Source: a virus. From it: DNA of 26,889 nucleotides. Made by a program: the position numbers and the translations under genes. Below, piece by piece: positions 1,453-26,803 of the stretch. The stretch's first letter is position 1, and each line of letters begins with the position of its first letter. Where the stretch lies: positions 1 to 26,889 of IMG/VR virus record IMGVR_UViG_3300035701_000234; one strand, 5' to 3'. The notes beneath the pieces are model-generated. The model was not told the origin of the DNA, made no database searches, and worked only from the letters and a program-made list of their open reading frames with translations.

Positions 1453-2181
1453 ATGCCAAAAATTGACCTAATACAAGGAGATTGCTTGGAGAAGATGAAA
1501 GATATTCCCGATGGGAGTATTGATATGATTCTTTGTGATTTGCCTTATGGAACTACTCAATGTAAATGGGATACAGTCATTCCGTTTGAGCCACTTTGGT
1601 TGCAATACAAAAGGGTTTGCAAAGGGGCGATTGTTCTAACTGGCAGTGAGCCGTTTTCAAGTTTATTGCGAGTATCTAATTTAGATATGTTCAAATATGA
1701 TTGGATATGGGAAAAATCAAAGGCAACTGGACATCTTGACGCTAATCGGCGTCCATTAAAAAAACATGAAATTATTTCTGTGTTTGGAACCTTAGACACC
1801 TATAATCCGCAGGGCTTGGTCACTAAAGATAAGCCTACTATAAGCAAGGGTAATAGAGGCAAGAAAGGAGAAGGTAGTAGCGGAGAGTGTTACGGCTTGG
1901 CGAATAAAGATGTTATTGTTACACAATACAACTACCCCAAATCAATTATATCATTTAATGTGGATATGAAAGCTGAGTTTCACCCCACTCAAAAACCCGT
2001 TGCTCTATTTGAATACCTAATAAAAACCTATACCAATGAAGGCGAAACTGTTCTTGATAGTTGCATGGGTTCAGGAACATCTGGCGTTGCTTGTAAGAAC
2101 CTCAACCGCAACTTTATCGGAATAGAGAAAGACCCTGAGTATTTCAAAATTGCAGAGAGGCGAATAAATGAAAATATATAA
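1453..2181 (+). CDS. Beta-class N4/N6 DNA methyltransferase (orphan)
   Basis: It transfers a methyl group from S-adenosylmethionine to the exocyclic amino group of adenine or cytosine in DNA. The catalytic motif IV appears as DLPYG (residues 29-33; a variant of D/N-P-P-Y). HPTQKP lies near 177-182, and the AdoMet-binding motif I DSCMGSGTSG lies near the C-terminus (about 203-212), followed by the acidic FIGIEKD. Motif IV before motif I with the target-recognition region between them is the beta arrangement (N6_N4_Mtase family). Length is normal at 242 aa. AAGGAG lies just upstream of the ATG. There is no restriction enzyme beside it, so self-protection of phage DNA is the likely role. The gene is clearly AT-richer than its neighbours and separates TerS from TerL, suggesting later acquisition. 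Confidence 0.9.
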   Translation: MPKIDLIQGDCLEKMKDIPDGSIDMILCDLPYGTTQCKWDTVIPFEPLWLQYKRVCKGAIVLTGSEPFSSLLRVSNLDMFKYDWIWEKSKATGHLDANRRPLKKHEIISVFGTLDTYNPQGLVTKDKPTISKGNRGKKGEGSSGECYGLANKDVIVTQYNYPKSIISFNVDMKAEFHPTQKPVALFEYLIKTYTNEGETVLDSCMGSGTSGVACKNLNRNFIGIEKDPEYFKIAERRINENI

Positions 2182-2241: not shown

Positions 2242-3861
2242 ATGACAAGTACTTCTGCAAATCCAGCGGTACTTCAAGTGCACAAGCGATTGCAGACGGA
2301 GTTTCCTTTCTTCGCCAAGTATGCTCCGTTGAAGATTATTGATAAAGCGGGCCGGTCCATCTTCTTCGTTCAGAATTTTGCCCAGCAATATATCCACCGG
2401 ATATGCGAGGCCCAGAGAAAATCTTTAGGCATGGTGAGAGCATTGCTTGTGAAGCCAAGGCAGATCGGATCTTCGACGGATAGGGTTTTGTATAATACCT
2501 GGAAGGTAACACGCAGCCCCGGGCGCAAAGCCGTTACAATGGCTCATCTGGCGTCGACTACGACTTCCCTTCAGGATAAAGTAAAATACGCGATTGATAA
2601 TGCCAACCCGGCGGCAGTGCCGAAAATGGAGATCTCCAACCAGAGAAGAATGGTATTCGAAGGGATCGGCTCCGAGATTACTTTTGGAACGGCGAAGTCT
2701 GAAGAGTTTGGCCGGGGGATCACGCCCCATGATTTCCATGGTTCTGAGGTAGCCTTTTGGGCGGTTCCCGCGAGTTTGATTGCCGGGGTTATCAACGGGG
2801 TCCCCATGGGAAATGATACTTCTGTTTTTATGGAGAGCACAACGAATGGCGTTGGTGACTGGTTTCATACGGCGGTCCAGAATTCCCTCCAAAGAAAATC
2901 CCCATACGTAACTCTGTTTGTCCCCTGGTTCTGGCAAGTCGAATATCAAATGGCCCTTGAGGCGAATGAAGATTGGGAACTCGATAAAGACGAAGAGAAA
3001 TTGATTCAGGTATTTAAACTTTCGCAGGCGCAGTTGAAATGGCGACGGTTTAAGATTGCAGAATTGGCTTCCCAAAAATTATTCAAACAAGAGTACCCGG
3101 CAACCCTGCAGGAGGCATTCCAGTTTGGTGGGGTGCCCCTGCTTGATGGCGACGCGGTTTTAATGGCGAGGAAATGTCAGGTTGAGGTCCAGGAATACGA
3201 GCCCCTGATCTTCGGGGGTGACTTTGGTGGCAGGACTGAAGGGGAGAAGGAGAAGAAGCCGGACCGGTCAACTCTGGTGCGGAGGCGGGGGAGAACTATT
3301 TTTCAGAACTATGAGTGCTGGGTGAATCTGGGCCCGGTGGATCTGGCGAATCATTATGCGAGGCTCATCCATACGGAGAAGCCCCAGAAAGTTTTTCTTG
3401 ATTATGGCTATGGTTTTGCAGTGGCAGACATTCTTTACAACCTCTCAAGTGAGTTCAGACAGATAGTCACCCTGGTTCAATTTGGGGGTGCCCCGAGAGA
3501 TAATGTGAAGTATGCAAACAAACGGGTTGAGATGGCTTTCGATTTTAAAGAGTGGCTGGATGATGGCCCAGTGTCTATTCCGGATACGGATGAGTTTTGC
3601 ACGGATATTATGTCGGTGCCGGATGCAACCTGGACGGCTGGGCAGAAGAGGAGAAAGCTCCCGGCGAAAGATGAGATCCGAAGTAAGACCGGCTTTTCCC
3701 CGGATTTTTTTGATGCGGCTTGTTTGACTTTTGCATACCCCGTAAAAAAGACTAGACTTATCGTGGGGACTTGGGGTATACTGAACGGCGTAACAGCCCA
3801 GAGTCTTGTTAAGTCTGGACGAAGAGGCTTATCAAGTCGGGTGTATAAACGTAAAATGTGA
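2242..3861 (+). CDS. Terminase large subunit (TerL)
   Basis: This is the packaging motor ATPase and headful nuclease that docks on the portal. The 539-aa length is typical. The ATPase segment has a Walker A-like loop KPRQIGSST (71-79) without the usual Lys after Gly. The Walker B-like segment is FHGSEVAFW (165-173), with Ser-Glu in place of Asp-Glu. A coupling motif FMESTTNG follows (196-203), then the family-typical FKQEYPATLQEAFQ (281-294). The RNase H-like nuclease half shows acidic residues in FGGDFGG (D327), FLDYGYG (D387) and SPDFFDAACLT (near 490). A strong AAGGAGGAG site precedes the ATG. The last ~100 bases also contain a candidate promoter for the downstream genes. The atypical Walker residues are probably a family trait, not decay. 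Confidence 0.92.
   Translation: MTSTSANPAVLQVHKRLQTEFPFFAKYAPLKIIDKAGRSIFFVQNFAQQYIHRICEAQRKSLGMVRALLVKPRQIGSSTDRVLYNTWKVTRSPGRKAVTMAHLASTTTSLQDKVKYAIDNANPAAVPKMEISNQRRMVFEGIGSEITFGTAKSEEFGRGITPHDFHGSEVAFWAVPASLIAGVINGVPMGNDTSVFMESTTNGVGDWFHTAVQNSLQRKSPYVTLFVPWFWQVEYQMALEANEDWELDKDEEKLIQVFKLSQAQLKWRRFKIAELASQKLFKQEYPATLQEAFQFGGVPLLDGDAVLMARKCQVEVQEYEPLIFGGDFGGRTEGEKEKKPDRSTLVRRRGRTIFQNYECWVNLGPVDLANHYARLIHTEKPQKVFLDYGYGFAVADILYNLSSEFRQIVTLVQFGGAPRDNVKYANKRVEMAFDFKEWLDDGPVSIPDTDEFCTDIMSVPDATWTAGQKRRKLPAKDEIRSKTGFSPDFFDAACLTFAYPVKKTRLIVGTWGILNGVTAQSLVKSGRRGLSSRVYKRKM
3753..3782 (+). promoter_or_regulatory. Candidate late promoter inside the 3' end of TerL
   Basis: TAGACT (3753-3758), an 18-nt spacer and TATACT (3777-3782). 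Across 31 bases (3752-3782) this matches the promoter before the capsid gene (10509-10539) at 22 positions. The matches include GACTTA, a central GGGG, CT, and GGTATACT at identical spacing. Shared bases in the spacer go beyond a generic sigma70 site and suggest one activator or sigma factor uses both. It would serve the small virion-type gene and the signal-peptide cassette downstream. Confidence 0.5.
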
Positions 3862-3904: not shown

Positions 3905-4291
3905 ATGAGCGGAACGATAGCAGGTTCGCATGGTTTGTACGCTGCAAGGCAAGCTCAGGCGCGTCGAAGGGCAAATGCCAGTGCCACAGGAGACAACTGG
4001 TCTGACAATTATGGCGAGGGCGACCAGGGTCCTTCTTTGATGGGAAAGTTTCTTGAGAATATGCAGGGGACCTTTGAGGCTCTTGCTAATGCTCAATCTC
4101 AACTTGCGAAAGCTCAGGCGGACGCAAAGAAGGCCCAGGCAGATCAAGTCAAAAAAGAAAAGCAGGCCCAGAAAGATGCTGAGGCTGCACTTAAGTCCCG
4201 GGGCAAAAGGCTACGGGCAAGTATTTTCACAAGTGAGGAAGGTGTCCTTGGGCCCCCCACCGCGGCCAGAAGTAAAGTTTTTGCAACGTAA
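3905..4291 (+). CDS. Small conserved virion-type protein (128 aa)
   Basis: The ATG at 3905 is chosen over upstream starts because AGGAG (3893-3897) sits seven bases before it and the upstream extension lies in the TerL tail. The middle (about residues 45-100) is an Ala/Lys/Gln-rich helix, likely coiled coil. The C-terminus (about 100-128) has Gly-Lys-Arg-Leu-Arg-Ala-Ser-Ile-Phe-Thr-Ser, then Gly-Val-Leu-Gly-Pro-Pro and a basic tail. This resembles the 'GRASTILTS..GL.G..P..RKTLLG' ending of small proteins found among structural genes of many podoviruses. In those phages it lies near portal or tail genes, so it is probably a minor virion or assembly protein. Its exact role is unknown to me. Confidence 0.8.
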   Translation: MSGTIAGSHGLYAARQAQARRRANASATGDNWSDNYGEGDQGPSLMGKFLENMQGTFEALANAQSQLAKAQADAKKAQADQVKKEKQAQKDAEAALKSRGKRLRASIFTSEEGVLGPPTAARSKVFAT

Positions 4292-4316
4292 ATAAAAAAT
4301 AAAAGGAGAAGTGAGC

Positions 4317-4922
4317 ATGAAGAAGTTTCTGTCGTTTTTGGTTCTTGGGATTTTTGTGGGTGTTGGGTTCTACGCTTTTGCGACCCCTGTCACCGCGTCG
4401 ATCACGGGCGCCCGGGCTGCGTATATTGCCAGCGTGTATGGCCAGGTGAACGCTGCGATCTCTGGTTACAAGTCCTCGTTCAACATACCTAATCACAAAA
4501 ATATCAGGCGTGTTGGCGTGAAAAATCGTACTTCTTCAACCACGGTCTTGTATGTCTCATTTAATAGGGCAAGTATTTACGGAGCTCACGCAAACGAAGT
4601 TGCCACGACTGCAGCCTCGGCGACAGCAACTTTGGATGCTGCGATTACTGACCTGAGAGTTGGGGATATTCTCCAATTTACAGAAGCGGGTGCGGACTAC
4701 GGTCCCCATATGATTACCGCTATGTCAACCGACGGGTTGACTGTAACTCTGAATCCTGCTCCTACTTTAACGACTGCGAACATGGATTTTAGTCTGTCTG
4801 AGGTTGTGGTTCCTGCCGCAACGGAAACTCCGATTTGGTTTGAAATAAACCCTGAGTCCATTGGTGTTGGGGCAAACGACGACGACTGTGCTTATCAGTT
4901 GATCTTGGAGTATGTTGATTAA
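4317..4922 (+). CDS. Exported hypothetical protein, paralogue 1 (signal peptide)
   Basis: The ATG at 4317 is preferred over GTG 4311 because AGGAG (4304-4308) is then eight bases away rather than two. The N-terminus MKKFLSFLVLGIFVGVGFYA plus FATPVTAS is a classic Sec signal peptide, with basic residues, a hydrophobic core and Ala-x-Ala sites near residue 22-26. The mature ~175-aa part looks beta-rich. Its C-terminal half has LRVGDILQFT, then APTLTTA, then a 'VVVPAATETP' strand. The same order recurs in the next gene (4947-5576), so the two are tandem paralogues. I do not recognise the family. It opens a run of six signal-peptide ORFs between virion genes; a surface-exposed or periplasmic role during infection is inference. 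Confidence 0.8.
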   Translation: MKKFLSFLVLGIFVGVGFYAFATPVTASITGARAAYIASVYGQVNAAISGYKSSFNIPNHKNIRRVGVKNRTSSTTVLYVSFNRASIYGAHANEVATTAASATATLDAAITDLRVGDILQFTEAGADYGPHMITAMSTDGLTVTLNPAPTLTTANMDFSLSEVVVPAATETPIWFEINPESIGVGANDDDCAYQLILEYVD

Positions 4923-4931
4923 TCAAACACA

Positions 4932-5002
4932 ATAAGGAGCACGATCATGCGTTACTATTTTTCTAAATTGGATATTCTAATGGTTGTGATCGTGCTCCTT
5001 AT
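4932..5002 (+). promoter_or_regulatory. 16-bp perfect inverted repeat sequestering a ribosome binding site
   Basis: ATAAGGAGCACGATCA (4932-4947) is exactly complementary to TGATCGTGCTCCTTAT (4987-5002). Two further G-U pairs extend it inward, leaving a 35-nt loop (4950-4984). The 5' arm contains the whole Shine-Dalgarno AAGGAG (4934-4939) and the A of the start codon. The 3' arm lies inside the signal-peptide core codons. In mRNA this should fold into a very stable hairpin that hides the start. Ribosomes ending the upstream gene at 4922 reach only the base of the 5' arm, so control by coupling, by RNA processing or by a binding factor is possible. Confidence 0.85.
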
Positions 5003-5576
5003 GATTTTTGTTGGGCCGATCAAGGCGGCGAATGATTCTGGGACGAATTATGTCTCCCAGGGTTTCAGCAAGGCCCGGTCAGTGATAGCAGAGCAGACGG
5101 CATGCCTGTATACTATTCAGGCGGCAAATACGGTTTATAAGTTCTCGCTCCCAAGTAGTAAGATCCCCATTTCCCTTTCTGTAAGAAACACTCATGCGAC
5201 GGCCCAGGTGTATGTGGATGCTACTCGAACAACTTGTTATAATAAAACAGGGACCGGGGCCTCTACAGCAGCGGATGCGACATTTAATCTGGGTGAAGCG
5301 GTTGCAGGTCTTCGTGCGGGGGATATTATTGTTTTCACAACGACTAACGCAGATCAGAAGCCGTATACACTAGCCTCAGTAACAAGTACCTCGATTGTTG
5401 AATTAGCAGAGGCTCCGACTCTCACAACGGCTTCCCAAGCGTGGAGTATCACGAGTGCGAGAGTGAGCCCAGGTGAAACCAGATCGTTTGACGTGGCCGC
5501 AGGGCCAATCGCTTTGCAGGCGAATACTGCATCTACGGGGGTAGAGTTGACCCTTGGCTATCAACGAGAGGACTAA
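4947..5576 (+). CDS. Exported hypothetical protein, paralogue 2 (signal peptide)
   Basis: AAGGAG (4934-4939) with seven-base spacing supports this ATG. The N-terminus is a longer signal sequence: ten polar residues, then the core LMVVIVLLMIFVG and a likely cleavage after Lys-Ala-Ala (near residue 30). The mature part contains GLRAGDIIVFT, then ADQKPY, then APTLTTA, then VSPGETRSFDV, in the same order as the upstream gene, indicating tandem duplication and divergence. Two Cys (CLYT, TTCY) lie early in the mature part and could form a disulfide, consistent with export. The start is buried in a 16-bp hairpin (4932-5002). Family and function are unknown; a beta-sandwich, fibre-like or decoration-like protein is the most I would suggest. 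Confidence 0.8.
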   Translation: MRYYFSKLDILMVVIVLLMIFVGPIKAANDSGTNYVSQGFSKARSVIAEQTACLYTIQAANTVYKFSLPSSKIPISLSVRNTHATAQVYVDATRTTCYNKTGTGASTAADATFNLGEAVAGLRAGDIIVFTTTNADQKPYTLASVTSTSIVELAEAPTLTTASQAWSITSARVSPGETRSFDVAAGPIALQANTASTGVELTLGYQRED

Positions 5577-5577
5577 T

Positions 5578-6468
5578 ATGCGATCCATTTTAGGGTTTTT
5601 GGCTCTGATGGGGTTGTGCTTTTTTGTGTCTCCTACGAGTGATACCCTGGTTATGCCGGGGAAAGTGTTGGCAGATACAAGTCCGCAGCTTGGCGGAGAC
5701 CTTTCTCTGAACGGGAAGAATCTTGACTTCCCGACGACTGCCAATATCTCAGACTGCCTCGATGAAGACAACATGGCTTCGGGCTCTGCGACCAAGCTGG
5801 CGACACAACAAAGTATTAAGGCGTATGCTGACACGAAACAGGCTGCAATGGGTGCTGACGATAACTACGTCACGGACGCAGAGAAAATCATCATCGGGAA
5901 CACGAGCGGAACGAACACAGGGAACAACGCGACCAACTCACAATACAGCGGGCTGGTGTCCAATGCCACGCACACGGGGGATGTGACAGGGTCTGTAGCT
6001 TTAGTCATCGCAGCTCAAAGAGTCTATGCATCCATGTTTGCCAGTACGAACGCGGCAGTGGATCTTTACACTCCGGTGTATGACTCTTCAACCGGGAAAT
6101 GCACATGGACGGCCCCAGTGACTAAACACATTCGGTGCGCGATCGTTGACCCAAATACGGCAGTCACTAAAACGGCAACGATCTGTTTAATTCCAACGAC
6201 AGCCTCAGCGATCACAATCACCAGACTTGATGTTTCAACAAGCTCTGCTTCATACGAGGTCGCAGGGGATTTGAAATGGGCTGATGCGTTTATCGGTTTG
6301 GCAAACGCAGCAGTCATCGAGACTTTCGACACAACCAGCGGAGTTAGGAGTGATTCTTCCATTGCTTCCGGGGCGGTGGCTTCTGGGAAATGCGTTTATC
6401 TGTCTTTCGACTCGGCCCCTAATGCCCTGATGGTGAGCGTAACAATCGATATCTGGTACACAAGTTAA
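5578..6468 (+). CDS. Tail-fibre-like protein with N-terminal signal peptide (296 aa)
   Basis: The start is ATG 5578 with GAGAGGA (5566-5572) before it, two bases after the previous stop. Residues 1-32 form a signal peptide (hydrophobic LGFLALMGLCFFV, predicted cut after Val-Leu-Ala). The mature part begins with DTSPQLGGDLSLNGKNLDFP, a hallmark of phage tail-fibre and receptor-binding proteins. NATHTGDVTGS follows (about residues 137-147), another fibre motif. The C-terminal ~150 residues have the strand pattern ITRLDVSTS, GDLKWADAFIGLANAAVI and GKCVYLSFDSAPNA, which I associate with beta-domains of environmental phage fibre proteins. A cleavable export signal on a fibre-like protein is unusual, since virion fibres are assembled in the cytoplasm. 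It may act outside the cytoplasm, for example by masking receptors; that is inference. Confidence 0.8.
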   Translation: MRSILGFLALMGLCFFVSPTSDTLVMPGKVLADTSPQLGGDLSLNGKNLDFPTTANISDCLDEDNMASGSATKLATQQSIKAYADTKQAAMGADDNYVTDAEKIIIGNTSGTNTGNNATNSQYSGLVSNATHTGDVTGSVALVIAAQRVYASMFASTNAAVDLYTPVYDSSTGKCTWTAPVTKHIRCAIVDPNTAVTKTATICLIPTTASAITITRLDVSTSSASYEVAGDLKWADAFIGLANAAVIETFDTTSGVRSDSSIASGAVASGKCVYLSFDSAPNALMVSVTIDIWYTS

Positions 6469-6477
6469 AGGAGCGAA

Positions 6478-6909
6478 ATGAAAAAGTTTTTTGCGATTTT
6501 TATTTTTATTACTTCCTTTTGTTTTGCAGACGTGACCGCAACGATAACAGGCGTCCGGCTTGGAGATCAGCACTATGTTTGGATTGATATACAATACAAC
6601 ATCGATGGGCGCGTCATTCTAAACGCTTATCCATTCGATATGAAAAATTATGCCGGGAAAACAAACGCAGAATTTTTCCAATGGATAAAGACAAATGTCG
6701 AATATCAATGTGACCGCTACATCGAAGCGGAATTCCGAAAAAAGAAAAATCAATCAGAGATCATTACCAAGTTAAACACGCTTCTGCTTAATAAATCGAT
6801 GACGAAACAGAATGCGGAACTGACTTTCGATAAAAATAACGACGGCATAGATGACTTGAAATGGACAATCAAAACGGATGGGACATACGTTGAAACAGCT
6901 GTTTCTTAA
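6478..6909 (+). CDS. Exported small protein with calcium-loop-like motif (143 aa)
   Basis: AAAGGAG directly upstream supports the ATG. MKKFFAIFIFITSFCFA is a clean signal peptide with cleavage likely after Cys-Phe-Ala (residue 17); the Cys is not in a proper lipobox. DKNNDGIDDLKW (118-129) has the D-x-N-x-D-G-x-x-D spacing of EF-hand, dockerin or thrombospondin-3 type calcium loops, which normally work outside the cytoplasm. The middle (about 84-110) is a Lys-rich helix. The gene is AT-richer than the flanking structural genes. I do not recognise the family. Its 3' end overlaps the next gene by 32 bases. Confidence 0.75.
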   Translation: MKKFFAIFIFITSFCFADVTATITGVRLGDQHYVWIDIQYNIDGRVILNAYPFDMKNYAGKTNAEFFQWIKTNVEYQCDRYIEAEFRKKKNQSEIITKLNTLLLNKSMTKQNAELTFDKNNDGIDDLKWTIKTDGTYVETAVS

Positions 6910-7492
6910 TTTAATAATTTTAATTTTTCTCTCTCCCCTCGTGCATGGGGCCGTTGTCGTTGGCACGAATTGCGGTTTTGTTTCATCTGTTCCGACCGCT
7001 GATCCAGACACGAGTTTGGTATATGGGGTTGATGATTATTCATGGGCGAGTAAATTCACATCTCCGGCAACGGCGGCTTTAGTCTCTGGCATGGGATGGT
7101 GGTGTGATGCGGCTTCGGATGCCGCTAATTTTGAGGTTGGGATTTATTCGCATGATGCAGGGAACAACAAACCCAATCTGAGATTATTTGTCAGTGATAC
7201 GAATGCGAAAGGGATTGATGCTGGCTGGAAAAACGTTTCCAGCCTTTCCTGGTCAATATCAGCCAGTACCGTTTACTGGATCGCTTTCCAGTGTGATAAC
7301 ACAGGCACCCCGACCTATACAAATCGCAAAGATGATGCCTCGTACAAGATGGATTACAAGCAGCCAAATGAAACGACCTTAAGTGATCCTTGGGGAACTT
7401 CAAAGGGTACGCTCGGGGTGAATATAACAGTTTATGCTTTATGGGCAGCGGCTTCTGGTTATGGGAACGTTTTAATTTCAGAGGACTGTTAA
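6878..7492 (+). CDS. Exported beta-sandwich-like protein (signal peptide)
   Basis: The ATG at 6878 lies inside the end of the previous gene. A TTG at 6890 (giving Met-Lys-Gln-Leu-Phe) would shorten the overlap to 20 bases and is a real alternative. The hydrophobic core LFLNLIILIFLSPLV ends with a cleavage site around His-Gly-Ala. The mature part has SGMGWWCD, FEVGIYSHDAG, DAGWKNVSSLSW and STVYWIAFQCDN. This is the strand pattern of beta-sandwich modules with a 'VGIY...GW..V....ISA.TVYWIAF' layout that occur in phage fibres and other surface proteins. It is the fifth signal-peptide gene in a row. Function is unknown; a surface-binding role is inferred from fold-like features only. Confidence 0.75.
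   Translation: MGHTLKQLFLNLIILIFLSPLVHGAVVVGTNCGFVSSVPTADPDTSLVYGVDDYSWASKFTSPATAALVSGMGWWCDAASDAANFEVGIYSHDAGNNKPNLRLFVSDTNAKGIDAGWKNVSSLSWSISASTVYWIAFQCDNTGTPTYTNRKDDASYKMDYKQPNETTLSDPWGTSKGTLGVNITVYALWAAASGYGNVLISEDC
7223..7244 (+). repeat. Perfect 9-bp inverted repeat within a coding region
   Basis: GGCTGGAAA (7223-7231) and TTTCCAGCC (7236-7244) are exact reverse complements around a four-base AACG loop, a compact RNA hairpin inside the 6878-7492 gene. It encodes ordinary residues (Gly-Trp-Lys-Asn-Val-Ser-Ser) and has no U-tract after it, so it is not a canonical terminator. It could pause ribosomes or guide mRNA processing, or be coincidence. Confidence 0.6.
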
Positions 7493-7588
7493 ATGAAAAT
7501 TAAAACATTCATCATTCTTTTTCTCAGCTTTCTATTTTCATTTTTAGTTTCGGCATCCCCATTGATGGTGTCGAACGAAGCCAGATGA
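7493..7588 (+). CDS. Short signal-peptide ORF (31 aa), possibly a broken gene
   Basis: The ATG begins immediately after the stop of the preceding gene (TAA then ATG). The product MKIKTFIILFLSFLFSFLV plus SASPLMVSNEAR is a textbook signal peptide with a Val-Ser-Ala cleavage site, leaving only about ten mature residues. The -1 frame is open across the same stretch and continues to a TGA at about 7630, encoding a basic tail (Gly-Ile-Pro-Ile-Asp-Gly, then Lys-Lys-Lys). A frameshifted or truncated sixth member of the exported cassette is therefore as likely as a true small membrane peptide. From its end to the portal start (7589-7678) I see only the portal ribosome site. Confidence 0.45.
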   Translation: MKIKTFIILFLSFLFSFLVSASPLMVSNEAR

Positions 7589-7678
7589 AGCGGCTATTCT
7601 TGAAAAAAAAAGAAAACAGAATTGACCAATGAGTATAACAGTCTGCCAATAACGGCAGCGATAAAATAGGAGATATTA

Positions 7679-9433
7679 TTGAAAACATTGGCTCAAATTC
7701 GTTCCCGGCACAAGTATCTCGTTTCCCAGAAGGCTCCATGGATCCCGCTCTACAATGCCGTAGCAAAGTATCTCCAGATGAGAAAAGACTTTTATGGGTT
7801 GTCAGAGCAGTCCCCGGGCAGTTTTGTTCCCGCAGATATTTATGATACGACCGCAGTAAAAAATAAGCAGCTTGCTGCATCTGCCCTCGTCGGTTGCCTT
7901 TGGCCTGATGGCCCAAGGTCTTTTGAGATTGTGCCCGCTGAAGATTTTGACGAGAAGGACAACCAGGAGGTCATCGACTATCTTTCTAAAGTGACTGATA
8001 GGATGAGGTATTATATGGCTCACGCAAAGTCCGGGTTCGCGGTCGCCCACGGGGAATTCGCTGAAGATCAGTTTTCTTTTGGCACAACGGGTTTTGCTGT
8101 CATGGGTAATAGCGAAAATTGGCCGGTTGTTTATCGCTGCTGGGACGTGAAAGAAATGGTTATTGATGAAAATGCAGAGGGCGCGGTGGACACGATATAC
8201 CGGACCCGGAATATGACTATACGACGGGCGATGGAGGAATATGGAGCTGAGAATTTCAGCGCTACTGTTCAAGGGAGAATAGCAGGCGGGGCCCTGGATG
8301 ATAATATCTGCATTGTTCACTGTATCTGCCCTCGCTATGGCAAAGGGGAGCGGATCCCCGAGGGCAAAGAAGGCGTTCTCTTTATGCCCTTTGCGTCCAT
8401 TCACTATGAAGAGTCAACGGGAAAGATCATTGAGGAAGGGGGCTTTGAAGAGTTTCCAGTTCCCGTGTGCCGGTTAATAAAGCTCGCCGGATGGACCTAC
8501 GGCTGGTCCTCTGCGTTGGCCGCGCTTCCGGATATTATTGAGCTCAATGCGTTTTGGGAAGCGATGTCTGAGGCTGCTGAGAAAGGTGTGCGGCCACCGA
8601 TGGGTGTTTATAATGACTCTGTAGTTAATGGAACGCTGAATACGGGATCTGATGAGGTCACCGTTTTTCAGGTTGATGGGCGCCAAGGAAACCAGTTACC
8701 CGTCTTCCCCATTCAGTCAGTCGGGGATTTTCGGGGCCTGCGGGAAGTAATTGAAGCAAAGACAGAGGCGGTGAAAACGAACTTCTTCGTTGACCGGCTT
8801 ATGGATTTTAATAATGAGGCCCGGATGACCGCGGCTGAAGTGGCGGCTCGGGGTGACTTGAGATACAAGTCTCTTGGTGCAATCTTTGGCAGGCAGGAAA
8901 GTGAAATGCTGGTTCCGGTTATTGAGCGCACTCATAATATTCTTTTTACAAAGGGCCTCCTTGGTATCGGGGTTGATACCCAAGAGGCTTTGGAAAAAGA
9001 GTCAATGAGCTTAAAATATTGGAGGATCCCCCAGGTTATTGTTGAGGCCATTCTAAATGGGCAGTCTTATTTCCAGATTGTATTTCGGAATTCAGTTACC
9101 GCTATGAAGAATTCAGAAGAGGTAGGAGGGATTATTACTCTTGCCCAGACAACGGGGTCCCTTGCCCAAATAGATCCCCAGGTTCTCGATAAGCTGCATG
9201 TGGATAACATGGTAGGTAGACTTCGAAAACTTCTTGGGACACACCCGTCACTTGAAAGGGCCCAGAAGGAAGTCGAGGCTATCCGGGCGAATAGGCAACA
9301 AGTTCAGGCACAAATGGCCCAGACGGAACAGCGGGAGAAGGGGGCAAAGGCTGAACAGTCTCTTGCGCAGGCAAGAGCCATGGACGCGAAGAGTGGGCCA
9401 GTGGTTTCCGGGTTCCCGATAGGTGGTATGTGA
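7679..9433 (+). CDS. Portal (head-to-tail connector) protein
   Basis: It forms the dodecameric ring at the capsid vertex through which DNA is packaged and ejected. The start is TTG at 7679, set by AGGAGA (7668-7673) five bases upstream; no ATG fits. At 584 aa it has the size of podovirus connectors. Early residues include the helical SRHKYLVSQKAPWIPLYNAV and ASALVGCLWPDGPRSFEI. Around 380-425 lies EARMTAAEVAARGDLRYKSL, then GAIFGRQESEMLVPVIERT, the signature of the T7 gp8-type Head-tail_con family. The C-terminal ~60 residues are Gln/Ala-rich and helical. The stop overlaps the GTG of the next gene, so the two are translationally coupled. Confidence 0.93.
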   Translation: MKTLAQIRSRHKYLVSQKAPWIPLYNAVAKYLQMRKDFYGLSEQSPGSFVPADIYDTTAVKNKQLAASALVGCLWPDGPRSFEIVPAEDFDEKDNQEVIDYLSKVTDRMRYYMAHAKSGFAVAHGEFAEDQFSFGTTGFAVMGNSENWPVVYRCWDVKEMVIDENAEGAVDTIYRTRNMTIRRAMEEYGAENFSATVQGRIAGGALDDNICIVHCICPRYGKGERIPEGKEGVLFMPFASIHYEESTGKIIEEGGFEEFPVPVCRLIKLAGWTYGWSSALAALPDIIELNAFWEAMSEAAEKGVRPPMGVYNDSVVNGTLNTGSDEVTVFQVDGRQGNQLPVFPIQSVGDFRGLREVIEAKTEAVKTNFFVDRLMDFNNEARMTAAEVAARGDLRYKSLGAIFGRQESEMLVPVIERTHNILFTKGLLGIGVDTQEALEKESMSLKYWRIPQVIVEAILNGQSYFQIVFRNSVTAMKNSEEVGGIITLAQTTGSLAQIDPQVLDKLHVDNMVGRLRKLLGTHPSLERAQKEVEAIRANRQQVQAQMAQTEQREKGAKAEQSLAQARAMDAKSGPVVSGFPIGGM

Positions 9434-11633: not shown

Positions 11634-12122
11634 ATGGCTGTCGTAGACCTGAAAGTGAATAGTGAAGCCGAGGCGGGGCGCAATGATGTTGTGTCCGGAA
11701 AAGAGATTGTTGTCCCATTTTTCCACACCACCGGTGTTGCGGATAGTATCGGCAGCGTGGTTCGGTTGGCTTGCGGTATTCCTGCGGACGCTATTGTCAC
11801 AGAAATATCCATCTGGTCCGATGGGGTGACTTCCCTGAATGATGTGGACGTTGGAGTCTACAAGAATGAGTCCCTTGGTGGCGGTGTTATCGACGCGGAC
11901 TGTTTTGGGGATGCTCTTGACCTTTCGGGCAGTGTTGCCAAAACCGTAATCAATGGGGGTCTTGTCACCCTGGCCAATGGTGACTACGGAAAAACCATTT
12001 TCAATCAGGTAGGCACAACCCTGATGCCCGTGAGAGTCCCAGTGGATATTTGCCTGACTTTCAAGGTGGCAACATCTGAAGCGGATCAGATTGCCGGAAG
12101 GGTTAAGTTTATCGCTCCGTAA
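11634..12122 (+). CDS. Probable capsid decoration/head protein (162 aa)
   Basis: It directly follows the capsid gene and shares its unusual initiation sequence, implying similarly high expression, as expected for a capsid-binding protein made in many copies. The sequence looks mostly beta: 'PFFHTTGVADSIGSVVRLACGIP', 'VTEISIWSDGVTSLNDVDVGVY' and 'VDICLTFKVATSEADQIAGRVKFI'. The 'DVDVGVYK' strand and 'GRVKFIAP' end are common in small virion proteins encoded next to capsid genes. There is no signal peptide. The family is not firmly recognised; head fibre, cement protein or minor capsid protein are all possible. A terminator follows 21 bases after the stop. Confidence 0.7.
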   Translation: MAVVDLKVNSEAEAGRNDVVSGKEIVVPFFHTTGVADSIGSVVRLACGIPADAIVTEISIWSDGVTSLNDVDVGVYKNESLGGGVIDADCFGDALDLSGSVAKTVINGGLVTLANGDYGKTIFNQVGTTLMPVRVPVDICLTFKVATSEADQIAGRVKFIAP

Positions 12123-12835: not shown

Positions 12836-15463
12836 ATGCCTCTTATAACAGACACTCTTTCAAATTTTGCTTCTGGGGAAATCTCCCCGAAGGTCTGGGG
12901 CCGATATGAGTTGCCCCTGTATCGGTCTGCGCTTGAGCGATCTGAAAATTTTATTCCCGAGCAACAAGGCTCTTTACGGTTCAGGAATGGGAGTATTCAT
13001 ATCCGGCACACGAGGAGAAATCTAAGGGCTTTTTTTATTCCCTTTCAGTTTAGTGATTCCCAGTCGTATTTACTCGAATTCACGAATTACAAGTTCCGGA
13101 TATGGAAAGACCAGGCGCTTATCGTGAACACAGCAAAAAATATTACCGGGGCTACTCAGGCGGATCCTTGCGTCATAACGAGCGCAAGCCACGGGTTTGT
13201 TGAGGGTGATGAGGTTTATATTGATTCAGTAGTGGGCATGACTGAGTTGAATGGAAAATTTTATGTCGTTACTAATCCGGCGGCCAATACTTTTGAATTG
13301 CATGATTCTAACGGGACAGCTTTAGGGGAGAATATTGATAGCTCGGGATTCGCAGCCTATACTTCAGGCGGAACTGCTGCTAAGGTTGCTGAAGTAAGAA
13401 CGCCCTATTCGGTGATCAAGGGGATAATTGATACTCCACCCGAAATAAAATATTCGCAGAACGCCGATGTGATGTACCTGGTTCATCGAAATTATCTTCC
13501 CTTAAAGCTCACGAGGACGAGCCATACAGCATGGACGCTGAAAACTTTTGTCAGAACGGAGGATCCGTTTTTATCTCTTGCGGCAACCAAGGCTATCAGC
13601 GCAATTACGAAGGCAGCTCCGGGTGTCCTGACGACAAGTTCAGCACACGGATATACAACTGGGGACCTTATTCAAATCCAAGCCATTGTAGGGATGACTC
13701 AATTAAATAATCAGCAATTTTATATTGATGTTGTTGATGCCACAAGGTTTTCTCTCCGGTATGTTGATGGAACCCCTTTGGATACCACAGCGCTTACAAC
13801 CTATGTTTCCGGGGGAACTGCGGCAAAGGCTACTGTTCTCGGGTGCCCCCAGGCAGTCGCTTTTAATGAGGGGCGGGTCTGCTATGGTGGGACCTCGGAA
13901 AACCCGGAAACCTTTTACATGAGCAGGACGCCATCCACTACAACAGGGGCCCCCCGATATGATGATTTTACAACGGGGGCGGACGCAGACCATGCCCTTG
14001 TTTTTACCCAGGCGCCCTCTTCATCGGGAAAGGTTGACTCTATTCAATGGTTTTTTTCAAATTTAAAATTCCTCGTGGCGGGGAATTTCGGGGGGTGCAA
14101 TCGGATTGATGGGGGGAGCGATACCGATATAATTAAGCCAACGGCTATTCGAGTCAAGCCCCTGGATACCCTTGGTGTAAAGAATATGATGCCTATTGGG
14201 GCAGGCAACGGAAACCTGGTATATATTCAGCGGGGCGGAAAATTGCTCCGTTCTCTTGAATTTGATTATAATATTGATCAGTACGTGTCTGTTGATCGGA
14301 GTCTCGTGGCGGATCATCTGACGAATGCCGGGATAAAGCAGCTTGCGTATCAGCGGGGGACCTCTGATGTTCTGTGGTGTGTATTGGATGACGGAACACT
14401 AAACGGAATGATTTTTAAAGACAAGTCTGACGTAAGCGGGTGGTTTCGGGTTACACTTGGGGGGACCGGTGTTTCTGTTTTAAGCATAGGAATCTATCCA
14501 AGGTCGGATGATTTCGACCAGGTTTGGCTTATAGTTGAGCGTACTATTGATGGGGTAACACGTAGATATGTTGAGTATTTCGATGATCCCATTTCTTTCC
14601 CTGTCCTGGAAGATTTTTTTACGCTTCCGGAAAATGCTACTGAGGACACGCAGCACTATCAAAACAGGATGTTTGAGCTCCAGAAATTGTCAAAGCATGT
14701 GGATGCTTCTGTCACGGTTGACGGATCGGCCAGGGGTGATGCCGTCGGGGCTACTCTTACTCCGGGGGCGGTGACCGGCCTGGGTGTTACATTTACAGCT
14801 TCGGCCTCCGTGTTTGTCGCCGCGGATGTGGGTAATGAACTGTGGATAAGATATATGGATGGTAGTGAATCAGGCCGGGCTAAAATTGTGAGTTATGTAA
14901 ATGCAGGTGAGGTCACCTGTGATATTACGCAAGATTTTAATTCGACGGATGCGGTTCCCCGGGGTGAGTGGTTCATAACTTTCAGATCTATTTCTGGTCT
15001 GGATCATCTCGAAGGGGAAGATGCTCAGCCAGTTTGCGACGGGAAGGCTCATCCTGTTTTGACAGTTACCGATGGGGCAATTACATTGGACTATGAAACC
15101 TCCTATGCTCATATTGGTCTAGCTTACAAGGGGGTGGCCAAGACTCTGGATATCATTCCTGCAATATCGGGGGGATTGATAAGCGGGAAAATAAAAGTGC
15201 TTCAAGGGGTCCGCTTGGGTCTTACGAATTCAGTTGGTCTTTATGTGGGTAATACAGTTCATAGCGTTCGGCAGCTTATTTTCCAGAGTACTTCGGATAT
15301 TGTTGGAAGGCCGCCCCCTCTGTTCACTGGGGACAAAGAGATTACAGCACCAGGCGGATGGGGCCGACGGGCTCAATTAGTCTTTTTGCAGCTTAAGCCA
15401 TATCCTTGTACGATCAATCAGCTTAGTGTAGATCCTTTAATAGAGGAGCCGATCGGTGAGTGA
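12836..15463 (+). CDS. Tail nozzle (T7 gp12-like tubular protein B) with two FCCH-like inserts
   Basis: This forms the tapering end of the short tail and the DNA exit channel. The N-terminus is diagnostic: NFASGEISPKVWGRYELPLY (10-29), then SALERSENFIPEQQGSLRFRNG. This is the 'F..GElSP.l.gR.Dl..Y..g...l.Nf.p...G.l..R.G' layout of podovirus nozzle proteins. Two internal repeats (about 103-185 and 253-333) each show 'V.T...HG...GD...I..V.GMT.LN...F.V..........L....G......Y.SGGTA', as in FCCH-type domains of similar tail proteins. The length (875 aa) is close to T7 gp12. The stop lies inside the start region of the next gene. Confidence 0.92.
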   Translation: MPLITDTLSNFASGEISPKVWGRYELPLYRSALERSENFIPEQQGSLRFRNGSIHIRHTRRNLRAFFIPFQFSDSQSYLLEFTNYKFRIWKDQALIVNTAKNITGATQADPCVITSASHGFVEGDEVYIDSVVGMTELNGKFYVVTNPAANTFELHDSNGTALGENIDSSGFAAYTSGGTAAKVAEVRTPYSVIKGIIDTPPEIKYSQNADVMYLVHRNYLPLKLTRTSHTAWTLKTFVRTEDPFLSLAATKAISAITKAAPGVLTTSSAHGYTTGDLIQIQAIVGMTQLNNQQFYIDVVDATRFSLRYVDGTPLDTTALTTYVSGGTAAKATVLGCPQAVAFNEGRVCYGGTSENPETFYMSRTPSTTTGAPRYDDFTTGADADHALVFTQAPSSSGKVDSIQWFFSNLKFLVAGNFGGCNRIDGGSDTDIIKPTAIRVKPLDTLGVKNMMPIGAGNGNLVYIQRGGKLLRSLEFDYNIDQYVSVDRSLVADHLTNAGIKQLAYQRGTSDVLWCVLDDGTLNGMIFKDKSDVSGWFRVTLGGTGVSVLSIGIYPRSDDFDQVWLIVERTIDGVTRRYVEYFDDPISFPVLEDFFTLPENATEDTQHYQNRMFELQKLSKHVDASVTVDGSARGDAVGATLTPGAVTGLGVTFTASASVFVAADVGNELWIRYMDGSESGRAKIVSYVNAGEVTCDITQDFNSTDAVPRGEWFITFRSISGLDHLEGEDAQPVCDGKAHPVLTVTDGAITLDYETSYAHIGLAYKGVAKTLDIIPAISGGLISGKIKVLQGVRLGLTNSVGLYVGNTVHSVRQLIFQSTSDIVGRPPPLFTGDKEITAPGGWGRRAQLVFLQLKPYPCTINQLSVDPLIEEPIGE

Positions 15464-15917
15464 GATGATCAAAGTTATTAGATTTTCTTTGGCTGATCTT
15501 GAATGGCTGCAGCCACGAGAGGAAGAGGCGGCCCTTTTAAAAATGCCGGGCTTTCGGGATCACTTGGAAGTCGTGGTCAGAACAGGTGGGGCTTTTACTG
15601 CTTGGCTTGACGGGGATGTCTTTGCTATTTATCTTCATGTTATTTTGTGGCCCGGGTGCGCAGAGGTTGGGCTTCTTGCTTCCAAATTGGCTACAAAAAA
15701 GAAGAAGCTCTTTGTAAAAACTACTCGGATTTTCTTAGAGACTTTTGAGAAAAGTTTTAAAGGATTGCAAAGAATTCAAGCGACCGGAGTAATAGACGCG
15801 GCGCATGACAGATTATTTAAAGCCTGTGGTTTTACAATGGAATGCGAGAGAATGCAGAAGTATCTCCCAAACGGGGCCGACGCAAGACTGTGGGCCCGGA
15901 TTAAGGAGGTTGCGTAA
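15456..15917 (+). CDS. T7 gp13-like / GNAT-fold internal virion assembly protein (153 aa)
   Basis: GAGGAG (15443-15448) supports the GTG at 15456, which overlaps the nozzle stop by eight bases. The sequence resembles the DUF2833/GNAT-like proteins that follow the nozzle gene in T7-like phages. It has 'GGAFTAWLDGDVFAIYLHVILWPGCAEVGLLAS' strands, then a Lys-rich helix 'TRIFLETFEKSFKGLQRIQATGVID', then 'AHDRLFKACGFTMECERMQKYLPNG', the last being the typical C-terminal GNAT 'a..fy...GF......m..Y..ng' end. Whether it has acetyltransferase activity is unknown; in T7 gp13 helps internal-core assembly. The TAA stop overlaps the next ATG (TAATG). Confidence 0.75.
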   Translation: MSEMIKVIRFSLADLEWLQPREEEAALLKMPGFRDHLEVVVRTGGAFTAWLDGDVFAIYLHVILWPGCAEVGLLASKLATKKKKLFVKTTRIFLETFEKSFKGLQRIQATGVIDAAHDRLFKACGFTMECERMQKYLPNGADARLWARIKEVA

Positions 15918-16591
15918 TGGCTGCGGCACTTCCAGTATTAGCGGTAGCTAGCGGGGCGTTCTCCATATTCTCCGGGGTTAATCAAATAAGGGCTTCCAAT
16001 AGTTCTGCAAAGCTCACTCAATATGGAATTGATGTCCAGCAGCAATTTAATGAGAGAGCTTATAAAGCTGACGTACAAGCGGCTGAGGCCGCCGGGCTTA
16101 TGGGGGTAATGGAGGCCACGATGACAAAGCTGCAAGTCGCCGGGCAAATGAGGGACGCTGCCTATGCGGTGCAAGATATTCTGGATCAGGCGACTTTTGC
16201 AAAAATTGACAATCGAAAGTTTTTAGCGGACCAGGGAACTGATTTCATAAAGGCTGGGGTAGACTTGGCGGGGTCACCTTTAATGGTTCTTACTGAAACA
16301 AAATTAAATGGGGTTAAGGACGTTAAATCTCTGACAGCCCGGGCGGTGGCCATAGCGGAGAAAGGCCAGATTGAGGGGTCTGTCGGGCTTGCTTCAGCGG
16401 ATGCCCGAAGAATTTCAGCAGGGCTGGACAGAACAAATTTATTAATCGCTGCCGGGCTCCGAAGGGATCAGGGTAATTTTAACGCCGTGTATAGTGCGGC
16501 AAGTAACCGGCTAAATCAGAGTTCCGGAACAATGGCGGGTCTCACAACGATGCTACAGGGGTTTACCTCTATAGCAAGTTTGGGGAAATAA
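15917..16591 (+). CDS. Internal virion protein (T7 gp14-like)
   Basis: The ATG overlaps the preceding stop. At 224 aa it matches the size of T7 gp14, which inserts in the outer membrane at infection. The N-terminus LPVLAVASGAFSIFSGVNQI is amphipathic to hydrophobic, and 'A.....Q.......AY.ADV.AAEA' is the helical Ala-rich pattern seen in this class. 'AAGLRRDQGNFNAVYSAASN' and a hydrophobic C-terminal 'GTMAGLTTMLQGFTSIASLGK' resemble the usual end. It sits between the gp13-like and gp15-like genes, as in T7. The call rests on order, size and composition more than on a sharp motif. Confidence 0.72.
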   Translation: MAAALPVLAVASGAFSIFSGVNQIRASNSSAKLTQYGIDVQQQFNERAYKADVQAAEAAGLMGVMEATMTKLQVAGQMRDAAYAVQDILDQATFAKIDNRKFLADQGTDFIKAGVDLAGSPLMVLTETKLNGVKDVKSLTARAVAIAEKGQIEGSVGLASADARRISAGLDRTNLLIAAGLRRDQGNFNAVYSAASNRLNQSSGTMAGLTTMLQGFTSIASLGK

Positions 16592-16592
16592 T

Positions 16593-18419
16593 ATGGCTAT
16601 ATCAGAATATAGAAGAAGGATTTTTGCATCGAGGGCAGTAGGCGCCCCCAGTATTAATGTTGGGGCTTTTTCCTCCGTTGCCGAGGCCCAGGTTCGGGGG
16701 GCAACGAATATTGGGAATGTCCTACGCCAATCCGGTGACGAGGTCCGGCGGGATACCGCTAATCTGGCAAATGCGAAACTTCAGAATGCCGATGCTCTGG
16801 CAAATCTGGCCCTCAACGCAACCCGTTTGGCTGTCACTCTGGCAGATAGAAAGACAAAGGTTCTGGCAAACAACGCCAGGACTGAAAGGCAGCATACTGA
16901 ATTTGAGATCGGGCTTCAGCAGTTACAGAGCCAGGTTGAGACTAAAATGGGGACAACGGATCCGGATTCCATGTCCAGGGTGTTTTTGGATCAGGGTGAG
17001 GCAATGAGACAAAAGGCTCTCGAAGGCCAGACTACTGAAGAGAAAAGCATTAATAGTACCCGGTTTGAATCAACCCTTGGTGAATATGCAAAGAAGATTC
17101 AAGGGTCTGTAGATGGCTATCGGATTGCGAACGTAAAGGCGGATGCTGAAATGACGCAGTCTCTTTTAGTAAAGCAGGCAGCGTCCCAAGTAGATCTTAA
17201 TGGGCTGCTAAAAAGCATGGGGGATGCGGGTGCAAGGATTGACGGGCAGAATTTCAGGGCTGCCCTGGGGCCGGATAAAACTGTCATGGCTGCTTTGAAT
17301 ACGAAGAGGAACCAGGTAAAAGCCTATTTTGACGCGAACATGGCAACCGGCGATAAGAATCAAACTTTTGCAGATTTTCAGTATCTCAAGCCGGAACTTG
17401 AGAAAGCGAGTGTTTTTGGAAGGGACGAGCTTGCGAAAATGGAAACGGATTTAGTTGACCAATTTAAGACCAGGCAAAGCCGGGAAGATATACTATTTCT
17501 TTATAAGAATCACGAGCTCGCATCTAAGTCTATGATTGAATTGGAAAACGGGCAGCTTTCTGCATTAACAGCCCAGGGTTACGTAGACGCTATTGACCAA
17601 AAAATTGAGCAGACAAAACTGGATGAGAAAATTGACGAGGGGAAAAAGCCTCTATTAATTAAGACCCTGGAGAATGACAGGGAGACTTATCAAAACTTTG
17701 TCCGGATTGCAGTGGACCGGGGCGGAGATATAACAAAAGTAGAGCAGGAGGAGGCCCTTCTTGCTGCAACGGACGCAGTCACTGATCTTTTTGGGAAGTT
17801 CAATACCAGAACCAAGAAGTTTGAGAAGAAAGATATACTTGGAAAAAATAATTTGGAGTCATTGGCCCAGGCAAGCGAGACCCGAAAAATTATATCTGGA
17901 GCTGTTGCCATTGGTGCCATAACCAGAAACAAAGCGATTGTTTATTTTAGTGCTATCGACCGGGCCCTTGGGGTCCTTGGCCAGAAAATAAAGCCGGAGA
18001 CCCAATTTACTGGTGGGATTGAAACGCAAGAGCACCCATGGCTTCGGAATTATTCTACCACGTTTGATTATGGATTAAAATCTGTTATGGATGAGGTCAA
18101 TCAAAGGCCAGCTAAAGAAAGAAAACAGATGAAGGCCACCGTGGTACCGGAATTTTTCAGACTATACGACATCGTCAGGAAACAACGAGAGGAAACAGGT
18201 CAGCAAATGGATGTGGGAACTGCTCAAAAATTGGTTCAGGCAGCCCTCCAGCCCCATTACCAAAGAGAAAATCCGGCTTCAGTGATGGGTGAAGTGGGGC
18301 AAATGGGAATGACCCCCGTCGGGCTTAGAAAAATAGCGGGTATCAATCCAGTAACAGGAAAGCGGGCTTTTGATTTTTCAGATGAAGATGTACGAGTTTT
18401 AAGCGCAAGGAGCCAATAA
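16593..18419 (+). CDS. Internal virion protein (T7 gp15-like)
   Basis: The 608-aa protein starts one base after the previous stop and is followed after one base by the next start, so this is a tightly packed unit. The N-terminal ~100 residues include 'RRDTANLANAKLQNADALANLALNATRLAVTL', a long helix. The body (about 100-480) is predominantly helical with many Lys/Glu/Gln, consistent with the tubular core proteins ejected into the periplasm. The C-terminus 'GLRKIAGINPVTGKRAFDFSDEDVRVL' is compact. T7 gp15 (747 aa) occupies the same slot. There is no enzymatic motif. Identification is by position, size and composition. Confidence 0.7.
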   Translation: MAISEYRRRIFASRAVGAPSINVGAFSSVAEAQVRGATNIGNVLRQSGDEVRRDTANLANAKLQNADALANLALNATRLAVTLADRKTKVLANNARTERQHTEFEIGLQQLQSQVETKMGTTDPDSMSRVFLDQGEAMRQKALEGQTTEEKSINSTRFESTLGEYAKKIQGSVDGYRIANVKADAEMTQSLLVKQAASQVDLNGLLKSMGDAGARIDGQNFRAALGPDKTVMAALNTKRNQVKAYFDANMATGDKNQTFADFQYLKPELEKASVFGRDELAKMETDLVDQFKTRQSREDILFLYKNHELASKSMIELENGQLSALTAQGYVDAIDQKIEQTKLDEKIDEGKKPLLIKTLENDRETYQNFVRIAVDRGGDITKVEQEEALLAATDAVTDLFGKFNTRTKKFEKKDILGKNNLESLAQASETRKIISGAVAIGAITRNKAIVYFSAIDRALGVLGQKIKPETQFTGGIETQEHPWLRNYSTTFDYGLKSVMDEVNQRPAKERKQMKATVVPEFFRLYDIVRKQREETGQQMDVGTAQKLVQAALQPHYQRENPASVMGEVGQMGMTPVGLRKIAGINPVTGKRAFDFSDEDVRVLSARSQ

Positions 18420-18420
18420 G

Positions 18421-22560: not shown

Positions 22561-22572
22561 GGGACTTTCAAA

Positions 22573-23364
22573 TTGGCGGATGCCATGGTTTCCTACCCGC
22601 TGGCCCTGGCCGCCTACCACCAGGCAAAAACAGAACTTGATCTACCTATAGACCAAGCGGTTGCTTACGCCCAGGACCTTGTCGAATCCAGCCAGGGGTC
22701 CTATCGGTTGAATCACATGGGGACCGCTTTTACAAAGGGGCCCTTGGGGAAAGCGATCGTGCAGCTTTTTAATTATTCGGGTAGCCAATATCAGCTTAAT
22801 AAAATAATAATGAACGACGCGCAAGCCAGGACAGAACTCGAGGGCTGGTTTTCCATCAAAGGCGGGGTGACTGCGGCCTCCTCAATGGTCTCCCTCTTTG
22901 CCCTGGGTGTTCTGATCCCAGCTATTTATAACATGCTATTGAGGGTACCCGAGGAAGAATGGAGCGAAGAGCGTTTATTGGAAGAGTTACTCAAACAACT
23001 TATGTCTCACATACCATACGGCCGGGGCCTTACAGATGCCGGGCTTGCCTTGGCACAGGGAAAAAAGACGCGGGAATTATTCGGCGCCCTCGGTCCATTT
23101 AAATTATATGGCGAAAATGGGGCAAAACTGATAAATAGCATCACAGATTTTGTAAAGTCGGAAGGGGAAGACAGCGGGAAGTTGTGGGAAACGATGGTAG
23201 CTGCTTTAAACATTGCAGCCGTGTCATCTCGCCGGTTGAGTGCGGTGCCCATGCCTGCATTAGAAAGGTTTATGGAAGCCTCTTATGATTTAAACCAGGG
23301 AGAGACAGAAGACTGGCGTCAATTATTTTTCCCAAAACATACGCTTTCAAAAGAGGAGGAGTAG
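22573..23364 (+). CDS. C-terminal part of the large internal virion protein (LPD38-like), separated by TGA
   Basis: It is in the same frame as the preceding ORF and the intervening four codons are open. The sequence 'LADAMVSYPLALAAYHQAK', 'PIDQAVAYAQDLVESSQGSY' and 'LGKAIVQLFNYSGSQYQLNKI' matches the end of large phage polyvalent-type proteins (LPD38-like: 'D......W..aY..A', 's..eAv.yAd.lv..sqgs', 'k.f..F.sY.s..yN'). That domain normally runs continuously from the upstream part. A TTG start at 22573 with GAGGGA (22559-22564) could allow re-initiation on the stop. Membrane-like helices occur near 97-123 (TAASSMVSLFALGVLIPAIY). The alternatives are nonsense mutation, programmed readthrough or a genuine two-polypeptide arrangement. 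Confidence 0.7.
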   Translation: MADAMVSYPLALAAYHQAKTELDLPIDQAVAYAQDLVESSQGSYRLNHMGTAFTKGPLGKAIVQLFNYSGSQYQLNKIIMNDAQARTELEGWFSIKGGVTAASSMVSLFALGVLIPAIYNMLLRVPEEEWSEERLLEELLKQLMSHIPYGRGLTDAGLALAQGKKTRELFGALGPFKLYGENGAKLINSITDFVKSEGEDSGKLWETMVAALNIAAVSSRRLSAVPMPALERFMEASYDLNQGETEDWRQLFFPKHTLSKEEE

Positions 23365-24695: not shown

Positions 24696-24917
24696 ATGGA
24701 ACGCCGTAAAGATCACTTTCTGGGGGTGCCGATTACTCTATGGATAACGATACTTGGTGGAATTGTAAGCCTCGTTGCAACGTTCACGACTTTGAAGGCC
24801 GATGTCAAGTATGAGAAAGAGTCTCGTCTCCAGGGGCAGGAGACACTTAAAGATGACTGCAAACGGATTGAGCGGAAGATTGATCGGATCACGGATATTC
24901 TAATGAAGTTAAAGTAA
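24696..24917 (+). CDS. Holin-like single-membrane-segment protein (73 aa)
   Basis: GGAGA just before the ATG (24696) makes this a better start than the in-frame one at 24669 inside the upstream gene. One membrane segment (about residues 10-31, PITLWITILGGIVSLVATFTT) is followed by a charged helix 'KDDCKRIERKIDRITDILMKLK'. A small protein with one membrane helix plus a coiled-coil tail, placed after the tail fibre, fits a holin or a membrane-bound lysis accessory. XhlA-like proteins have the reverse order, so homology is not claimed. No endolysin is visible nearby. Its TAA overlaps the next ATG. Confidence 0.6.
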   Translation: MERRKDHFLGVPITLWITILGGIVSLVATFTTLKADVKYEKESRLQGQETLKDDCKRIERKIDRITDILMKLK

Positions 24918-26690: not shown

Positions 26691-26803
26691 GTTCTGCCCC
26701 TCCTCTTTAAAACTCCCCACCCGCACACACTGGTTTAAATGGTTCTTGGTTATTTACTCCAGTTAATCAGTTTTCGATTTTACGGGCGGGGGAATGTTGT
26801 TAT

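Follow-up and report, generated by a model that had tools for sequence, protein, structure and literature searches.

Assembly of tailed phages is taken to be wholly cytoplasmic, with the tail nozzle normally closing the packaged head, and the phage proteins known to be exported include signal-peptide endolysins, spanins, the T4 antiholin RI and superinfection-exclusion lipoproteins such as T5 Llp. Known phage fibre, tailspike and cement proteins, among them the trimeric cement protein of Helicobacter phage KHP40 and the tail fibre of Agrobacterium phage 7-7-1, have no signal peptide, and both their synthesis and their assembly are cytoplasmic. A Sec endolysin has been reported (PMC8951688), and the cellular lipoproteins and surface adhesins that are DGR targets have been described as binding proteins that are exported and that bear a signal peptide or TM segment at the N-terminus (PMC8144416).

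The locus analysed here would share the use of host Sec with the exported phage proteins. While those are lysis or exclusion factors, mostly encoded by single genes, here runs of two to six genes join predicted signal peptides to virion-type domains. The DGR targets with such N-termini in PMC8144416 are cellular, whereas this cassette belongs to a phage. In the shaft module and tip of its third gene, the cassette resembles phage fibre, tailspike and cement proteins, but its ORFs begin with predicted signal peptides (hereafter, are tagged). In the full-text literature covered, which includes few subscription papers and no preprints, we found no account of a virion fibre or nozzle gene bearing a signal peptide; to our knowledge, the recurrent, putatively exported fibre/tail cassette is new, Sec-exported lysis and exclusion proteins being already known.

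The stretch analysed, which we call the window, spans all 26,889 bases of the IMG/VR virus record IMGVR_UViG_3300035701_000234, a linear metagenome fragment. Outside the cassette, PHROG matches and gene order reveal a T7-like podovirus structural module that shares order and families with the known one: portal, scaffold, major capsid protein (MCP), tail tubes, ejection proteins and a gp17-type fibre (Table 1). No integrase was noted among the window genes. The right end, 25600-26889, has no clear plus-strand gene, and the minus-strand ORFs 25514-26017 and 26316-26726 may belong to a transcription unit that runs the other way and is truncated where the contig stops; GC skew also turns here.

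Table 1. Features of the window and, in the last five rows, small genes in other contigs (contig:coordinates). The arrow (↓) marks the predicted cleavage point.
Feature	Coordinates	Strand	Description
DNA methyltransferase	1453-2181		phrog_67, E 1e-72; directly upstream of TerL
Large terminase (TerL)	2242-3861	+	phrog_2, E 7e-16; left border of the slot
Small Ala/Lys/Gln-rich gene	3908-4291	+	ORF reading and synteny; start codon position uncertain
ORF1	4317-4922	+	predicted signal peptide MKKFLSFLVLGIFVGVGFYAFA↓TP, then a beta-rich domain of ~180 aa
ORF2	4947-5576	+	predicted signal peptide MRYYFSKLDILMVVIVLLMIFVGPIKA↓AN; paralogue of ORF1
ORF3	5578-6468	+	predicted signal peptide (..MPGKVLA↓DTSPQLGG), phage fibre module, C-terminal jelly-roll tip
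ORF4	6478-6909	+	predicted signal peptide MKKFFAIFIFITSFCFA↓DV (or ADVTA↓T), then ~125 aa
ORF5	6878-7492	+	predicted signal peptide MGHTLKQLFLNLIILIFLSPLVHG↓AVVVGTNCGFV, then a beta-sandwich
ORF6	7493-7588	+	31-aa mini-ORF, predicted signal peptide MKIKTFIILFLSFLFSFLVSA↓SPLMVSNEAR
Portal (T7-type head-tail connector)	7679-9433	+	phrog_332, E 5e-89; TTG start; right border of the slot
Scaffold-position gene	start 9725		
MCP	start 10706		phrog_3437
Tail tube	start 12169		phrog_394
T7-type tail nozzle (tail tubular protein B)	12836-15463	+	phrog_376, E 2e-128; without signal peptide
Long genes in the ejection-protein position	15917-23364		
Tail fibre, T7 gp17-like N-terminal domain	23368-24381	+	phrog_1640, E 1.1e-23; without signal peptide
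Holin-like gene	24705-24917		
Small gene between fibre and 231-aa gene	L040:10348-10617		
Small gene between fibre and 231-aa gene	L089:4994-5290		
Small gene between fibre and 231-aa gene	L090:9699-9992		
Small gene between fibre and 231-aa gene	L094:9708-9989		
Small gene between fibre and 231-aa gene	L098:9456-9743		

Among collinear genomes, the closest is MW202485 (Manatee Spring), whose TerL shows 34% and whose portal 31% identity. In it, as in Vibrio phage 1.182.O, a single small gene separates TerL from the portal, so that, relative to these two, the cassette is an insertion between the TerL-side genes and the portal, as an earlier note on this DNA had claimed from the letters alone; tagged genes in this slot are absent from the collinear relatives examined. 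No close relatives of the window were found in IMG/VR by TerL or ORF2. The same note had placed the cassette under a late promoter, a suggestion that finds no footing, given that promoter-like sites in the window are not commoner than in shuffles.

All six cassette ORFs are genuine ATG ORFs, tightly packed on the same strand, with clear Shine-Dalgarno-like sequences at five of the six starts and a weaker one at 6878. Their N-termini were assessed with a rule-based Sec test that looks for a basic n-region, an uncharged hydrophobic 10-mer and small residues at -3/-1; on a control set of 83 E. coli K-12 genes, the rule recovered nine of the ten taken as exported, and pdeC was its single false positive when multi-TM proteins were left out. 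ORF1, ORF2, ORF4, ORF5 and ORF6 pass it. ORF3 has the n- and h-regions and a site, VLA↓DTSPQ, at residue 32, and scores low because its c-region is atypically long. Signal-peptide-like starts are thus found in 6/6 cassette ORFs against 1/21 of the other window genes (Fisher p=2e-5), or in 5/6 against 1/21 if ORF3 is not counted (p=4e-4), the lone outsider being the holin-like gene; among spurious ORFs of the window, 4/245 pass. The run of six consecutive signal-peptide ORFs that the earlier note had seen is therefore borne out, although "five proteins and a mini-ORF" describes it more exactly, since ORF6 is just 31 aa long. The N-termini, together with cleavage points that coincide with domain starts, lead us to infer Sec export and cleavage of products whose signal peptides are themselves predicted.

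Several other accounts of these N-termini were considered. No SPII call, with the lipobox cysteine at +1 expected of Llp-type superinfection-exclusion lipoproteins, was obtained among ORF1-6, and neither Pfam nor PHROG showed in ORF1-5 a lysozyme, amidase or spanin domain of the kind that marks lysis proteins such as SAR endolysins and spanins; no gp17-type virion anchor is present in the cassette, that domain sitting on the untagged fibre gene. Dual starts yielding an untagged form were rejected, ORF1 and ORF2 having no in-frame start near the cleavage site and the remaining cassette ORFs none with a convincing Shine-Dalgarno sequence. Oxidative folding as a reason for export is not favoured by cysteine content (0.95 vs 0.79 per 100 residues, with parity about random).

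What follows the signal peptide is clearest in ORF3 and ORF5, one of which, ORF3, gave the better of the two structure models made (ORF3 tip and ORF5). Residues 33-90 of ORF3 are 60-85% identical to tail-fibre modules of many, largely marine, phages in which these modules have no signal peptide. Its tip (residues ~181-295) is modelled as a jelly roll (pLDDT 93, pTM 0.85) whose closest fold match is a trimeric phage cement protein (E 6e-5); it also resembles a phage tail fibre (TM 0.61, E 3e-3) and matches many predicted phage fibre proteins. Judged by sequence and predicted fold, ORF3 is thus clearly built of virion outer-surface modules, a fibre shaft and a jelly-roll tip, which agrees with the beta-rich fibre or surface modules proposed earlier. 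Kinship of the tip with the window's post-MCP protein (11634-12122) was examined, and the comparison gave no support.

In ORF5, the relatives locate the junction. One is tagged (L055, 36% identity) and adjoins that phage's tip gene, while four are untagged and begin MA(V/L)VVGTN(C/S)GFV, which is the predicted mature end of ORF5 (SPLVHG↓AVVVGTNCGFV). Because the untagged relatives begin at the cleavage site, the ORF5 signal peptide looks grafted before a stand-alone phage domain, one that occurs elsewhere as an untagged gene of its own after MCP-side genes. By its sequence, ORF5 is clearly a virion outer-surface module, a beta-sandwich decoration domain. Its structure model has a pLDDT of 62, a low confidence, and the fold matches are weak.

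We take ORF1, ORF2 and ORF4, for which no relatives were found outside the window, to be of the same virion outer-surface kind. ORF1 and ORF2 are 34% identical (E 4e-17), and ORF1 weakly matches phrog_584 (tail; E 0.016). Two inserted repeats of the window's nozzle gene (..SHGFVEGDEVYIDSVVGMTELNGKFY.. and ..AHGYTTGDLIQIQAIVGMTQLNNQQFY..) match this same family. The calcium-loop-like motif mentioned in the earlier note corresponds to the ORF4 loop DKNNDGIDD, which fits such a loop as judged by eye only. ORF6, a signal peptide plus 10 residues, is possibly a remnant.

The idea that this set and its slot are peculiar to one phage gains no support: at least a dozen others carry related tagged cassettes, in the usual fibre or decoration slots. 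A scan of IMG/VR with the ORF3 tip as query showed that this tip ends signal-peptide-bearing proteins of fibre or tailspike type in 12 further phages (L037, L040, L041, L042, L044, L046, L048, L054, L055, L056, L057 and L062); tip proteins of three others (L043, L060 and L061) have no signal peptide, and that of L049 is cut by the contig end. With gene starts in these contigs taken from a simple caller, and counting the genes up to three places away from the fibre gene, 30/68 carry a tag in the tagged loci against 0/73 in those with an untagged fibre (p=4e-12, an optimistic value because the loci, some of which share the 231-aa and LamG families, are related by descent and not independent). 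The place of the cassette is not fixed: it can follow the nozzle or MCP, precede TerL or, as in the window, lie between TerL and portal. Two families recur beside it, one of 231-aa proteins whose tagged N-terminus is conserved and one of LamG lectins. Relatives of the tip and 231-aa families, sought as a guide to hosts, were not found among GTDB representative genomes.

The 231-aa family (L040:10635-11330, with homologues in L037, L044 and L089-L091) has an unusually conserved n-region, MNRRFVGKIMxWxLxSL-like, and some members start in a twin-arginine-like manner; ORF1 and ORF2 were considered as its kin and set aside (hhalign probability 1.7%). In several cassettes, the tagged fibre is separated from the tagged 231-aa gene by a small untagged gene, often of ~95 aa and starting MAL(T/V/A), which differs in L040 from the small genes found in that place elsewhere; it is possibly a chaperone or partner. 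In a further phage, reached via the ORF3 shaft module, four more signal-peptide ORFs are clustered (L035:7987-10732), away from an untagged fibre gene.

In other phages, predicted signal peptides also stand on core virion genes. The gene directly after MCP is tagged in four genomes (G001, G003, G009 and G010), and a phrog_3287 virion protein is tagged in G003 and G011, in each as the sole copy, and untagged in four others with a readable start. A T7-type nozzle (phrog_376, E 9e-198 and 1e-179) is likewise tagged and present as the sole copy in G013 and G017; the records of tagged phages being linear fragments, "sole copy" holds within the record. The extra N-termini of these two nozzles, VAKRAWLILFLCSAVWG↓QGVRQHIPAFNAGEVSP and MAGIKRVICFLLAWLFAGSTWG↓ATSVLVNSFSGGEISP, stop in the alignment at the point from which untagged nozzles, such as MASKVIKNSFNAGELSP, set out. 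In G013 the start is preceded by a strong Shine-Dalgarno sequence, and the signal peptide barely reaches the threshold score. No tag was present on TerL, portal, MCP or scaffold wherever these were seen in tagged loci.

Because the tagged set consists of outer parts of the virion, some of them essential, we favour export of these proteins, which would then encounter the particles beyond the cytoplasm, lysis being the simplest occasion. At the level of sequence, signal-peptide-like N-termini, the virion-type ORF3 and ORF5, linked all-or-none tagged sets and the tagged nozzles support this reading, in which Sec-exported outer-surface fibre or coat proteins join virions, or act beside them, outside the cytoplasm, and to which we assign a probability of roughly 0.4. 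Late in infection, the cassette proteins would cross the inner membrane and lose their signal peptides, while heads, portals and DNA packaging would remain cytoplasmic; when lysis opens the inner membrane, the outer parts, by then folded, would come upon the particles and attach to them as additional fibres or coat proteins, having perhaps covered host surface receptors on the way. That virions are joined outside the cytoplasm, and to some benefit, we infer. Against this, normal assembly takes place on the side of the membrane that Sec export would make the proteins leave, tailspikes or lectins could work unattached once exported, and the window's own cassette need not be virion-borne, since the phage has an untagged fibre and nozzle.

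The main rival, topologically the simplest account and a serious if doubtful one, is that fibre genes were recruited by adding a signal peptide and that the exported proteins stay outside the virion, free or bound to the host envelope, where they would mask receptors, exclude superinfecting phages, bind or degrade polysaccharides, or serve in adhesion. The window phage keeps its untagged T7-type fibre, the cassette is dispensable in the collinear relatives, and tagged proteins elsewhere with pectate-lyase, CBM or LamG lectin domains or a tailspike-like region can act alone; receptor masking or superinfection exclusion by the window phage is possible. Such an account leaves unexplained why a tag should stand on the sole nozzle of G013 and G017, on phrog_3287 proteins and on post-MCP genes, and in some tagged phages the regions examined show no evident fibre gene without a tag. 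A view of the products as most simply non-virion envelope effectors, in line with the roles listed in the earlier note, has lost ground, with the tagged sole nozzles of two phages and the ORF5 kin that start at its mature end both telling against it.

The tagged nozzles could be accommodated without post-lysis assembly if the hydrophobic N-termini were uncleaved membrane anchors or virion-docking arms, holding the proteins at the inner membrane or the particle with no periplasmic release. This is unlikely: a basic n-region and small -3/-1 residues are present consistently, the predicted cleavage points equal the starts of untagged homologues (ORF5, the nozzles and the ORF3 module), and the segments vary between neighbouring genes as signal peptides do, unlike a shared docking arm. 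Far less probable still is that chance, a gene-calling artefact or a contig chimera, through coincidental start choice or foreign DNA, produced the pattern; the predictor is indeed rule-based only and the contig a linear metagenome fragment, but the background rate among spurious ORFs is far below the five or six of six in the cassette, no break in base composition occurs across 4000-7700, and the association recurs in at least a dozen independent contigs.

Extending the favoured reading, export and completion of virions outside the cytoplasm, beyond the window, we tentatively propose that widespread uncultured tailed phages may make outer virion parts (fibres, post-capsid decoration proteins and sometimes the nozzle) as Sec-exported precursors, apart from cytoplasmic heads, so that infectious particles would be completed only at lysis. 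That such phages are uncultured, and that export is seldom annotated for their fibres, could explain why the pattern has escaped notice. It raises the question of how export-marked tail parts reach a particle built inside the cell, and the occurrence of tagged tail and fibre genes in unrelated phages, beside untagged homologues starting at the cleavage site, makes an alternative assembly route directly testable. Tagged genes also name phage-made proteins that probably occur outside infected cells, with possible effects there on receptors, superinfection and polysaccharides, and if the cassette proteins were proved to be in particles, this would be a new kind of virion assembly.
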